A stretch of 64,000 bases of DNA from Bradyrhizobium sp. CB2312 (GTDB lineage Bacteria > Pseudomonadota > Alphaproteobacteria > Rhizobiales > Xanthobacteraceae). The stretch covers positions 2,439,501 through 2,503,500 of the forward strand of contig NZ_CP121668.1 of the NCBI RefSeq assembly GCF_029714425.1, given 5' to 3'. Each line of letters opens with the position of its first letter. Position 1 is the stretch's first letter. The notes below the pieces were generated by a model, which was given only the letters and a program-made list of their open reading frames with translations, was not told the origin of the DNA and did no database searches. Positions 60,485 to 64,000 of the stretch are shown piece after piece. A program made the position numbers and the translations under genes.

Positions 60485-60523
60485 GGGCGGCATTCCAGGT
60501 GGAATCGCCGTTGTGCCGCGCGG

Positions 60524-60552
60524 TCGCATATGCGACAATCTGTAGCGTTACA
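60524..60552. promoter_or_regulatory. Putative BlaI-type operator region
   Basis: A perfect 12-base palindrome TCGCATATGCGA (60524-60535) and, at 60541-60552, TGTAGCGTTACA with TGTA/TACA arms of the kind that BlaI/MecI proteins bind. They lie 29-57 bp before the BlaI-type start. One of them may be the autoregulatory operator; assignment is by eye. Confidence 0.45.
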
Positions 60553-60580: not shown

Positions 60581-60973
60581 ATGGACGATCGTTTGCCCGA
60601 ACTGGGAGACCTCGAGCGCGAGGTCATGCAATTGGTTTGGGCCCATGGTCCCGTCACGGCCGAAATCGTGCGTGAGCGGCTGTCGCGGCGCCTGAAGGAG
60701 TCGACCGTGCGCACCGTGCTGCGCCGGCTCGAAGAAAAAGGCTATGCTAACCACACCGTGGACGGACGGACCTATGTCTACACCGCCGCCGAACCACGCG
60801 CGAAGGTCGCCGCCAAGGCGGTGCAGCGCATCGTCGACTGGTTCTGCAACGGCTCGATCGAGGAAGTCCTCGTCGGCATGGTGGACAATGCGATGCTCGA
60901 CCAGCAGCAGCTGCGCACGCTGGCCGATCAGGTGGCCAAGGCGAAGAAGGCGAGGGGAGTGAAGAAAGAATGA
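60581..60973 (+). CDS. BlaI/MecI/CopY family repressor
   Basis: A 130-residue winged-helix repressor. MDDRLPELGDLEREVMQLVWAHGPVTAEIVRERL and LKESTVRTVLRRLEEKGYANHTVDGRTYVYTAA form the DNA-binding domain; the C-terminal helices dimerise and contain the region cleaved by the partner peptidase in other systems. The stop overlaps the M56 peptidase start (ATGA). The pair should act as a signal-relieved repressor of its own operon. In alphaproteobacteria such pairs are usually not linked to beta-lactamases. Confidence 0.92.
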   Translation: MDDRLPELGDLEREVMQLVWAHGPVTAEIVRERLSRRLKESTVRTVLRRLEEKGYANHTVDGRTYVYTAAEPRAKVAAKAVQRIVDWFCNGSIEEVLVGMVDNAMLDQQQLRTLADQVAKAKKARGVKKE

Positions 60974-63489
60974 TCGCAACTCTGGCGGAGGCGGCGCTGC
61001 GCTCCCTTGTGCTGGGAGGCGTCGTCTGGTTCGGTCTTTATCTTTTTCGCGTGCGAAATCCACACGTCCACATGACGGCGTGGATCGTCGTGCTGCTGGC
61101 GTCGCTGGCGATGCCTTTCGTGATGCATTGGCCGACGCTGACCATCACGCGGCTGCCTCTGCCGATGCCCATGCCGGACGATGTCGTTCCGGCCGACATC
61201 TCGATGCTGGAGACGCCGCAGCCAGCCCTGGCGATGCCGCCGGGCGCCGCCGTCGTGGCGCCGGCGAGGGGCGGGTTCTCGATCAATTGGTGGCTGGTCG
61301 CCACCATCGTCTATGCCGGCGTCGCCGGGCTGCTCTTGCTGCGGCTCGCCATCGGCCTCTGCCTGACCTGGCGCCTGGCGCGGGCGGCGCAGCCCGTGAG
61401 CGGCGCGACCATGATCGGAGCCGACGTGCGCGTCAGCCGCGACGTCGGCGGTCCGGTCACCTTCGGCTCGACCATCCTGGTGCCGCCGCAATTTGCCGGC
61501 TGGGACGCGAAGAAGCGCCTCGCGGTGCTCGCGCATGAAGGCGCGCATGTCGCCAATGGCGATTTCTACATCCTGCTGCTGGCCTCGCTCAACCGCGCGG
61601 TGTTCTGGTTCAGCCCGTTCTCGTGGTGGCAGCTCGCGCGCCTCGCCGAGCTCGCCGAGATCATCAGCGACGCCGAGGCGATCGAGGTGATCGACGACCG
61701 GCTGTCCTATGCCGAAATCCTGCTGGATTTCGCCAGCACCGTGAAACCGCGGCCGGTGGAGCTCGCGATGGCGCGCGCCTCGACCGTGCGCGCCCGTGTC
61801 GAGCGCATCATCGCGGCGGCCGCGATGCCCGTCGCGGTCGGCTGGCGCAAGCGGCTGTGGATCGCGGCCGCGATCGTTCCAGCCGTGATCGTGTCCGCCG
61901 GCATGATCGCCTATCGCACACCCGAGCCCGCGCCCGTCGCCGCCGAGACCGGCGAGGTGCCGGCCCAGCATTATCGCCCCTTCGTCAATTTCTATGCCAT
62001 GGGGCCGTCTTCCGTGTTCGCCATCTTCCGCGAGGGCGACGAGCTCTATGGCCAGCTCACCGGGCAGCGCAGGCTGCGCCTGACGGTCGGCAGCGACGGC
62101 ACCGCGTCCTACGCGGCCTCGTCCGGCGAGATCACGTTCTCGGCTGAGGCGGAGCGCCGCTCCTCCGAGCTGATGCTGCGCATGAACGGCCGCGACATTC
62201 GCGCGGTTCGCGTCGCCGAGATGCCGACGGCGGCGGCCGAGCCCGCAGCGCTTGATCAATATGTCGGCTGGTACAGGGTCGCGCCGAACCGCGTGCTCAC
62301 CGTGCGCCGCGACGGCGATCGTCTCCAGGTGCAGGAAACCGTGCAGGGCCAGGCGGCGCTCCTCACCGAGGGGACCGACGTCTTCTCGATCCATGGCGAC
62401 AATCTCTTGATCTTCCTGCGCGACGCGCAGGCCAAGGTCTCGCGGGTTCTCGTCCAGAACGCGGTGTTCGGCGCGCGGCTTGCGCCGCGGATCGACGCGG
62501 CGGTGGCGCAGGCGATCGAGGCCGATTTCGCGCGCCGTGTCGCGGAAGTTCCGGATCGCTTCCGGGAGCAGGTCCCGGTCGCCGGCGGCAAGGACTTGAT
62601 CTTGCGCGGGATCGAGGACTTACGGCGCGGTACGCCGAACTACGATCGCATGAGCGCCCCGCTGGCTGCCAAGATCCATCGTCAGCTCAATGAAACGCAG
62701 GCGACGTTCGCGGCGCTCGGCGCAGTCGAGTGGCTCTTCTTCCGCGGCGTCGGCCCCGGCGGCTACGACATCTATGGCGCGAAGTTCGAGAACGGCACGG
62801 CGGAATTCCGCCTGCTGCTCGAGCCCGACGGCAAGGTTGGCGACGTGCTGTTCCGGGCCGACGGCAACGACGAACTCGGCGGCATTGTGCTTTGCGCGGA
62901 GGAGGCGAATGTGCGCGGCTACGCCGGGACGTCGCCGATCAGGATCATGGTCTATAACGAGATGGGCGAGGACATCCAGGTCTTCAATCTCGATGCCGGC
63001 GGCAATCGCAGGATGCAGAGCCTCGTCAGGCCCAACGCGACCTGGGCCGCGACCACCACCGTGAACAATCCGTGGGTGATCGCCGACAAGTCGGGGCGGT
63101 GCATGGAGATCCTGGTGCCGGGCCGGCAGACCCGCTTTCACAATGTGGAAGCCTCGAATATCGGTGCCAAGCCGGGACGCGCGGCACGCCGCGCCGTTCC
63201 GATCGCCAATGGCGAGGAGATGCTGCGCCGTTACATCGAGAGCGTCGGCAAGGGCCGGCCGGACTACGAGCACATGACGCCGGAGGTGGCCGACCTCACG
63301 CGCCAGCAGCTTCCGTTCGACCAGGCGATCCTGGCGCGGTTAGGTGCGCTGCGCGCGGTCTCCTTCCGCGGCGTCACCGCGCTCGACAGCGACATCTACG
63401 TCGCCCAGTTCGCCAACGGCTCGGCGGAGTGGCGCATCGGCGTCAGGAACGGCACGATCACGAAAATCGCGCTCGGGCCGAATTTCTAA
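60970..63489 (+). CDS. M56 family sensor peptidase with VHL-like segment
   Basis: An 839-residue BlaR1-like integral membrane metallopeptidase. Helices lie at about 8-26, 36-53, 106-133 and 296-315. The zinc motif H189-E-G-A-H193 is in LAVLAHEGAHVANGD. After the last helix comes an extracytoplasmic region without a penicillin-binding domain: two DUF3471-like beta units (about 335-495), a duplicated unit (539-628 and 747-836, both ending in an FRG-x-n-DIY strand and a NGTAEFR/NGSAEWR strand), and between them a segment (654-718) resembling the VHL beta domain. The stop codon lies in a repeat (63486). It probably cleaves the BlaI-type repressor on signal. Confidence 0.88.
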   Translation: MIATLAEAALRSLVLGGVVWFGLYLFRVRNPHVHMTAWIVVLLASLAMPFVMHWPTLTITRLPLPMPMPDDVVPADISMLETPQPALAMPPGAAVVAPARGGFSINWWLVATIVYAGVAGLLLLRLAIGLCLTWRLARAAQPVSGATMIGADVRVSRDVGGPVTFGSTILVPPQFAGWDAKKRLAVLAHEGAHVANGDFYILLLASLNRAVFWFSPFSWWQLARLAELAEIISDAEAIEVIDDRLSYAEILLDFASTVKPRPVELAMARASTVRARVERIIAAAAMPVAVGWRKRLWIAAAIVPAVIVSAGMIAYRTPEPAPVAAETGEVPAQHYRPFVNFYAMGPSSVFAIFREGDELYGQLTGQRRLRLTVGSDGTASYAASSGEITFSAEAERRSSELMLRMNGRDIRAVRVAEMPTAAAEPAALDQYVGWYRVAPNRVLTVRRDGDRLQVQETVQGQAALLTEGTDVFSIHGDNLLIFLRDAQAKVSRVLVQNAVFGARLAPRIDAAVAQAIEADFARRVAEVPDRFREQVPVAGGKDLILRGIEDLRRGTPNYDRMSAPLAAKIHRQLNETQATFAALGAVEWLFFRGVGPGGYDIYGAKFENGTAEFRLLLEPDGKVGDVLFRADGNDELGGIVLCAEEANVRGYAGTSPIRIMVYNEMGEDIQVFNLDAGGNRRMQSLVRPNATWAATTTVNNPWVIADKSGRCMEILVPGRQTRFHNVEASNIGAKPGRAARRAVPIANGEEMLRRYIESVGKGRPDYEHMTPEVADLTRQQLPFDQAILARLGALRAVSFRGVTALDSDIYVAQFANGSAEWRIGVRNGTITKIALGPNF

Positions 63490-63611: not shown

Positions 63612-63780
63612 GACGACTCTCGCCGCCGGCCAGACAGGCCGGCGGCTTCCGATGTCTTGATGGCGGTCGCTCAATCTCTGCTTGCGCGCTCATCTTGCGA
63701 ATGTTACGATCGGTAGCATTACGGTTCGTAGCTTCGTGCGACATGCCGTCGGGCGGCGCGAAAAGATCTGGGCGTTCGCC

Positions 63781-64000
63781 ATGAGCAATTCCGCAAAGGC
63801 CGAAGCTGTGCTGGCGCTTCATCGCTTCGGGATGGGGCCGCGACCGGGATCGATTGCCGCTGTCGGGACGGACCCGCGCGGTGCGCTGATCGCAGAGCTC
63901 GAGCGGCCGCTCACGCTGACCGGAGCGGCCAGTCTTCCGACGAGTGCGAAGGCCTATCGCACTGTGGCCGACGCCAATGCGCGGCGCACCGCGCGCGCCA
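63781..64000 (+). CDS. DUF1800 family protein (partial, N-terminus)
   Basis: The frame opens at ATG 63781 and runs off the right edge; 73 residues are visible. ALHRFGMGPRPGSIAAVG, then DPRGALIAELERP, is the standard DUF1800 N-terminal pattern. These proteins are usually exported and paired with a DUF1501 protein, which would lie outside the window. No export signal is visible, as is common in alphaproteobacterial members. The ribosome site before 63781 is weak. The 170 bp before it hold no gene that I can see. Confidence 0.85.
   Translation, partial: MSNSAKAEAVLALHRFGMGPRPGSIAAVGTDPRGALIAELERPLTLTGAASLPTSAKAYRTVADANARRTARA

Follow-up and report, generated by a model that had tools for sequence, protein, structure and literature searches.

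What does the protease of a BlaR1-BlaI-type pair sense, and which genes does the pair control, when no penicillin-binding domain can be found in the sensor? This question is raised by a locus at the end of a 64,000-nucleotide (nt) stretch of Bradyrhizobium sp. CB2312 DNA (contig NZ_CP121668.1, positions 2,439,501 to 2,503,500; hereafter, the window). An intact open reading frame (ORF) on the + strand (60970..63489) encodes an 839-amino acid (aa) M56 (BlaR1-like) membrane protease with a predicted multi-module extracytoplasmic sensor, and lies directly 3' of a gene for a BlaI-type repressor; all window features described below are likewise on the + strand. We consider it probable that this pair forms a relay of the BlaR1-BlaI type with a different sensor and, mostly, a different output, which would control its own genes and the neighboring operon. 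What can be seen in the sequence are the domains, the repressor neighbor, operator-like motifs at two promoter-like places, and co-inheritance.

Like the BlaR1-BlaI and MecR1-MecI systems of Staphylococcus aureus and Bacillus licheniformis, the pair combines a membrane-anchored M56 protease containing HExxH and ExxxD motifs with a C-terminal extracytoplasmic sensor (assigned here from hydropathy), an adjacent BlaI/MecI repressor, and operator-like sites in more than one location. The M56 peptidase domain (residues 8-278; 60991..61803; Pfam PF05569, 2.2e-13) contains the HExxH zinc motif (residues 189-193; 61534..61548), as a preliminary description of the sequence had claimed, and the ExxxD motif (residues 230-234; 61657..61671), with H189, E190, H193, E230, and D234 invariant in a 9-row alignment (A2). 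A 35-row profile matched the sequence of the BlaR1 structure determined by cryo-electron microscopy (8exs; E = 3.7e-9) over profile positions 19-255, where the two motifs align with the HExxH and E242xxxD of BlaR1. The last hydrophobic stretch (residues 296-314; 61855..61911) is preceded by WRKR, and the part C-terminal to residue 314 is taken as extracytoplasmic by analogy with BlaR1, whose C-terminal sensor is described as such in passages of PMC9834060. Known BlaR1 and MecR1 sensors carry a penicillin-binding domain, as noted in the preliminary description and borne out by passages of PMC9834060 and PMC7593790. By contrast, no penicillin-binding, class D beta-lactamase-like, or transpeptidase domain was among the three Pfam families that matched our protein up to E 10, and the NCBIfam model blaR1_generic scored 29.9 bits against a cut-off of 400, over residues 154-283 only. 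Because the characteristic sensor domain was not found, we did not classify the protein as BlaR1.

Instead, the sensor consists of five modules, which are a beta module akin to the DUF3471 that follows it (residues 338-404; 61981..62181), DUF3471 itself (residues 422-493; 62233..62448; PF11954, 7e-9), the first copy of an ≈100-residue repeat module (N1; residues 530-632; 62557..62865), a VHL-like segment, and the second copy of the repeat module (N2; residues 738-839; 63181..63486). The three-part sensor proposed earlier, with a VHL segment between two repeats, is therefore correct as far as it goes, and omits DUF3471 and the preceding beta module. Alignment of residues 521-615 with 728-823 gave a score of 163, compared to 28.6 ± 4.8 (maximum of 54) for 2000 shuffles (z ≈ 28); this score is so far beyond the shuffles that the internal repeat, also recognized before by eye, is not due to chance. 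A weaker repeat pair links residues 338-404 to 431-496 (score of 63 compared to 24.5 ± 4.5 for shuffles). The N module carries no Pfam name in any of the proteins scanned, and its profile matched nothing convincing in the PDB (best value, 0.037). It also occurs C-terminal to DUF3471 in proteins whose N-terminal parts differ considerably, including a MerR-type regulator (L005), and N and DUF3471 modules are present in VHL-less M56-BlaI relatives (L034 = L111). The L005 gene (1492-2592) fuses a MerR-type DNA-binding domain to DUF3471 and the N module, and this regulator is expected to be cytoplasmic.

The assignment of the fourth module (residues 640-728; 62887..63153) as a VHL beta-domain homologue is supported by homology through intermediate proteins. 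In a search of 297 genomes of the order, residues ≈638-740 matched segments in proteins of other architecture, nine of which matched at E-values of 2e-7 to 4e-11 (small database); three of these nine linking proteins (L014-L016) are mutual kin. Eight of the nine were scanned (L015 was left out), and seven scored above the PF01847 cut-off, with the eighth (L025) just below it (19.4 compared to 21 bits). To lessen circularity, the set was split into six M56-VHL segments (A3) and twelve other bacterial VHL segments (A4). Comparison of A3 with A4 by hhalign gave a probability of 99.4 (E = 3.2e-21; 101 columns), and A4 alone matched human VHL in the PDB (1.4e-10; 44 bits) without gaps across 60 residues, such that human Leu63-Ala122 is collinear with residues 648-707 of our protein. 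The earlier reading of a VHL beta domain by eye thus proved right as homology, and both the repeats and the VHL-like segment are real, with the segment spanning ≈640-728 rather than the 654-718 first proposed. The profile match suggested at that time as a check was obtained between A3 and A4 and from A4 to human VHL, and not for the protein or the M56-VHL group alone.

The hydroxyproline pocket of human VHL is formed by Trp88, Tyr98, His110, Ser111, His115, and Trp117, according to passages of PMC9528729; in the ungapped alignment, these positions correspond to residues 673, 683, 695, 696, 700, and 702, respectively. We scored the pocket in nonidentical segments, comprising 141 of the M56 type (drawn partly from a homologue search, from the best 120 of 948 homologues) and 37 from other bacterial proteins, where many rows are close kin. 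None of the 141 M56-type segments has Trp at position 88 (Asn in 130), Tyr at position 98 (Gln in 124), or His at position 115 (Asn in 105 and Ser in 28). As in the VHL beta domain, the Ser/Thr111 and Trp117 positions are kept (Thr in 141 and Trp in 140 of 141). The other bacterial segments contain Trp88 (36 of 37), Tyr98 (29), Ser/Thr111 (37), His115 (36), and Trp117 (37), and His110 is retained in neither set. Replacement of three of the five scored residues in the M56-type segments makes a hydroxyprolyl peptide an improbable ligand, and we favor another peptide or a glycan, bound on a predicted disulfide-stabilized VHL sandwich.

Two extra cysteines, the putative disulfide partners Cys642 (62893..62895) and Cys711 (63100..63102), are present in 141 of 141 M56-type segments and are common to other bacterial VHL segments (33 and 37 of 37, respectively). 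This invariance in the protease would suit a redox or envelope-stress switch, in which breakage of the Cys642-Cys711 disulfide signals without a ligand; however, the occurrence of the pair in other bacterial VHL proteins makes it look structural, and we regard such a switch as very improbable. The domain was probably once pocket-bearing, disulfide-held, and secreted, and its binding site changed within the protease. We conclude on sequence grounds that the protein is a BlaR1-like protease that contains a VHL beta-domain homologue, and is neither BlaR1 proper nor a full PF01847 member. It was not assigned to the latter family because it falls below the Pfam cut-off and does not keep the pocket. 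The segment further differs from the VHL beta domain in lying inside a membrane protease, and the match spans the beta domain only.

The output side begins with the repressor gene (60581..60973), which lies upstream of the protease gene with a 4-nt overlap and encodes a 130-aa BlaI/MecI/CopY-type protein. Its matches to PF03965 (5.1e-29) and to BlaI/MecI structures (1p6r, 1.9e-10; 1sd6, 1.5e-7) indicate a winged-helix repressor domain. A scan of the genome_contigs set (84,980 species, two peptide patterns) yielded 71 loci, of which 57 have the VHL part (VHL-type loci), and a BlaI-type gene adjoins the protease gene in 56 of these 57; the exception (L180) ends at a contig edge.

Comparison of the upstream regions of 38 loci revealed a conserved palindrome type, TGTARCGYTACA, before blaI. 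In the window, operator-like motif 1, GCGACAATCTGTAGCGTTACA (60532..60552), which holds the palindrome TGTAGCGTTACA, precedes blaI, and operator-like cluster 2, AATGTTACGATCGGTAGCATTACGGTTCGTAGC (63700..63732), follows the protease gene. Of the 57 VHL-type loci, 56 have a match to the wider motif, GCKACN5GTARCGYTA (≤2 mismatches allowed), before blaI, and 54 have one less than 130 nt beyond the protease gene or before the DUF1800 gene (exceptions, L149, L153, and L169); 5 further matches lie elsewhere in 687 kb. The first 15 loci contain 60 matches compared to 7.95 for permuted patterns. Likewise, the first 340 nt 3' of the protease gene in 43 loci (a partly overlapping set) contain 103 matches compared to 1.8 in shuffles, with at least one match in 36 of the 43; L002, L096, L097, and L102 have a site at or beyond that limit. 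Both places have a promoter-like element composed of TTG, ≈17 nt, and then the motif across the -10 region: TTGTGC, a 17-nt spacer, and GACAAT before blaI (60511..60539; conserved in the window and 56 loci, and in most of the 38 loci), and TTGCGC, a 17-nt spacer, and TACGAT before the DUF1800 gene (63682..63710; aligned in the window and 39 of the 41 DUF1800 loci), where the coordinates were counted by hand. TGTA and TACA half-sites are found within the motif in an arrangement unlike that of the TACA/TGTA-type BlaI operator, TACANNTGTA. The motif also precedes blaI in the VHL-less M56-BlaI relatives L186-L188 and L192 (Bryobacteraceae metagenome-assembled genome [MAG]). More generally, VHL-less M56-BlaI pairs (L111 = L034, L107-L109, and L186-L188) share the repressor type and a related motif before blaI, and differ in having no VHL segment and no DUF1800 gene in the stretches examined. 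Together, the operator and gene-neighborhood patterns support the link of the protease to BlaI.

Behind the second operator-like cluster lies the start of a DUF1800 gene, which is cut at the window end (63781..64000) and followed in the genome by a DUF1501 gene (PF08811, 4.7e-115, and PF07394, 6.4e-28, on locus L103). Passages of PMC5122149 predict that DUF1800 and DUF1501 genes share an operon and report a twin-arginine export motif in a DUF1501 protein; papers on the two families gave no function. Among 146 sampled genomes of the genus, full-length matches to the protease (at least 53% identity) occur in 55, where G571 (gene in pieces) was counted and G516 (only two N-terminal fragments) was not. 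The matching DUF1800 subtype (71-100% identical; search threshold of E up to 1e-100, at which fragments would be missed) was found in 45 of the 146, all of which have the M56-VHL gene, and the next listed DUF1800 matches have ≤49% identity. Ten genomes contain M56-VHL without the DUF1800 subtype and none show the reverse (Fisher test, 2.8e-28, uncorrected for kinship). In the genome_contigs set, DUF1800 is present in 41 of the 57 VHL-type loci and in 0 of the 14 others, a group that includes one truncated VHL-type contig (L183). In the relay that we propose, BlaI would repress the promoters of both blaI-M56 and DUF1800-DUF1501, the VHL/N part would bind a ligand that is extracellular or belongs to the envelope, this binding would change the membrane protease, and the protease would cleave BlaI as BlaR1 does, turning on both operons. 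The preliminary description had likewise put forward, as a hypothesis, that these modules sense a different ligand and trigger BlaI cleavage.

Several results weigh against this reading. Searched by itself, the protein did not match the VHL family of Pfam at E-values up to 10 and does not reach the PF01847 cut-off; direct NCBIfam and PDB searches of the protein also returned no VHL match, as did the PF01847 profile searched against the CB2312 genome. All 12 linking segments had been fetched by their likeness to the window protein, and the A3 profile alone detected no VHL in the PDB up to E 10 and instead matched fused fucose-lectin repeats (summed E of 1.5e-6). The lectin match would be in keeping with an unrelated Ig-like or lectin-like sandwich that came to resemble VHL by convergence; however, it consists of three stretches of ≤12 bits each, which we judged to be repeat inflation, and the alignment with VHL is ungapped and collinear over 60 residues once intermediates are used, leaving convergence barely credible. 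In a relative with 56% identity, conservation is lowest in the VHL segment (44%, compared to 65% for N1/N2 and 58% for M56), which fits weak constraint as well as a change of ligand. On the repressor side, the scissile pair of S. aureus BlaI, Asn101-Phe102, aligns in our reading with Gly99-Met100, so that cleavage at the equivalent position is not assured. The motif was derived from overlapping species, many loci are close kin, and the motif and co-occurrence counts are not corrected for kinship; moreover, the motif is not enriched across the CB2312 genome, where it falls below the control. Finally, DUF1800 is absent from 16 of the 57 VHL-type loci.

The low conservation of the VHL-like segment compared to N1/N2 and the loss of its hydroxyproline-pocket residues are also what would be expected of a structural spacer, with the ligand bound by the DUF3471 or N modules. 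These modules occur together without VHL in the MerR-type L005 protein and in the M56-BlaI relatives L034 = L111; other VHL-less relatives (L107-L109) are shorter (542-544 aa). Yet a VHL segment is present in 57 of the 58 closest genome_contigs loci (L128-L185), where the remaining locus (L183) is cut at a contig end. Both cysteines are invariant, and the residues that took over the pocket positions vary rather little (Asn in 130 and Gln in 124 of 141), which kinship partly explains. On balance, we find a spacer role rather unlikely and prefer a sensor in which the VHL/N part would bind the ligand.

The VHL-type loci without DUF1800 bear on a different alternative. In twelve of these 16 loci, the gene that comes next is RlpA-like (judged by eye), and L153 is a short contig. 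In most DUF1800-bearing loci, the RlpA-like gene comes after DUF1501, and the RlpA-next loci therefore look like cases of loss of the DUF1800 and DUF1501 genes. PF00144 (beta-lactamase-family) hydrolase genes are found in or near the same slot in L096 (by Pfam), L057 and L059 (53-55% identical to L096), and L066 (by eye). DUF3471 often accompanies PF00144-type hydrolases. The protease could be a functional analogue of BlaR1 that responds to beta-lactams or muropeptides and regulates hydrolases acting on the envelope, as the relay type, the PF00144 genes beside the protease in some relatives (L096, L057, L059, and a remnant in L102), and the RlpA-like gene next in 12 of 57 loci would suggest. 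This role appears unlikely to us, given that Pfam found no penicillin-binding or transpeptidase domain in the sensor, that the window has DUF1800-DUF1501 behind the operator and no beta-lactamase, and that RlpA seems merely to be the next gene once DUF1800-DUF1501 is absent.

VHL segments are uncommon across the class (8 of 337 genomes, CB2312 included, with a profile of all 18 segments), and a family sample of 198 genomes added full-length matches in two more genera (G386 and G360). The CB2312 genome (9.78 Mb) contains one match to the protein, whose nearest database relative, 98% identical over residues 500-839, carries the name Bradyrhizobium sp. B117. The 57 VHL-type loci belong to Bradyrhizobium, one Tardiphaga MAG, one Hyphomicrobiales MAG, and one record titled Frankia sp. 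RB7. In a 35-row M56 tree, the VHL-type proteases form one group with a support of 90/86 (under the starred level), which was recovered in 92% of bootstrap trees; hence, a single acquisition is likely, although not firmly shown. The locus in the record titled Frankia sp. RB7 (L164) is 82% identical and has blaI and an RlpA-like gene as neighbors; this record may be mislabeled. The two short N-terminal M56-gene fragments of G516 (C83:415703-415992; 74% and 58% identical) are perhaps a decayed copy.

Bacterial VHL domains are already known, in that passages of PMC9002001 deal with a hypothetical bacterial protein, predicted to be secreted, for which a VHL beta domain is predicted. Our literature search, whose coverage excluded most subscription papers and all preprints, listed no work on M56 sensors that contain a VHL domain. 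The assignment made here places a VHL-type domain in a bacterial signaling protein. It also equips the BlaR1-BlaI relay with a new kind of sensor and with DUF1800-DUF1501 as predicted target operon, the switching of which becomes testable. A broader and quite speculative idea, which we think has little chance of holding in full, is that bacterial VHL beta domains are old extracellular readers, one of which was built into a Bradyrhizobium BlaR1-type protease and re-tuned to a new ligand as a VHL-fold switch for DUF1800-DUF1501, while secreted members keep the pocket and may bind hydroxyprolyl or similar peptides. Hydroxyproline-rich plant cell-wall glycoproteins would be candidate ligands of the pocket-keeping secreted members, as the genus is plant-associated. 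If this idea were true, VHL-type recognition would predate the HIF pathway. Because pocket residues are kept in some bacterial VHL domains and lost in others, ligand binding by these domains can be tested directly.

A search of the CB2312 genome for a wide BlaI regulon was negative. The exact palindrome occurs at 2 places compared to 6 for the control, and the wider motif with one mismatch has 8 matches on each strand compared to 106 and 95 for the control. Around the wider-motif sites of this genome, the 16 loci of 3 kb revealed neither a second blaI gene nor a second M56 gene. Two one-mismatch copies of the motif, 26 nt apart, lie ≈1.1 kb before a recA-like gene (by eye; G000:C1:3879051-3879095; L118 and L119), and could be a further repressor site or a chance occurrence.

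Other observations concern the slot behind the protease gene and VHL genes elsewhere. The hydrolase-like ORF after the protease gene in L066 (G574) begins with MSNSAKA, like the DUF1800 gene of the window, as if the hydrolase had replaced DUF1800 behind the same promoter. A PF00144 gene remnant (1.4e-7) between the protease and DUF1800 genes in L102 (6781-7254) suggests an older hydrolase neighbor, and L105 has a gene of the S9 prolyl oligopeptidase family in or near the slot. Genes that resemble an RND efflux pair by eye lie behind the second motif cluster in the Tardiphaga MAG (L174). L085 (1444-1935) encodes a small protein in which a mannan-binding MVL domain (6e-7) comes after a VHL domain (7e-10). 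The VHL gene of L091 is similar, and in both loci the gene directly upstream shares ≈40% identity with a PF00144 hydrolase. Last, a C-terminal VHL segment with an intact pocket occurs in a 1288-aa protein (L106:917-4783) that resembles TPR/CHAT proteins by eye.

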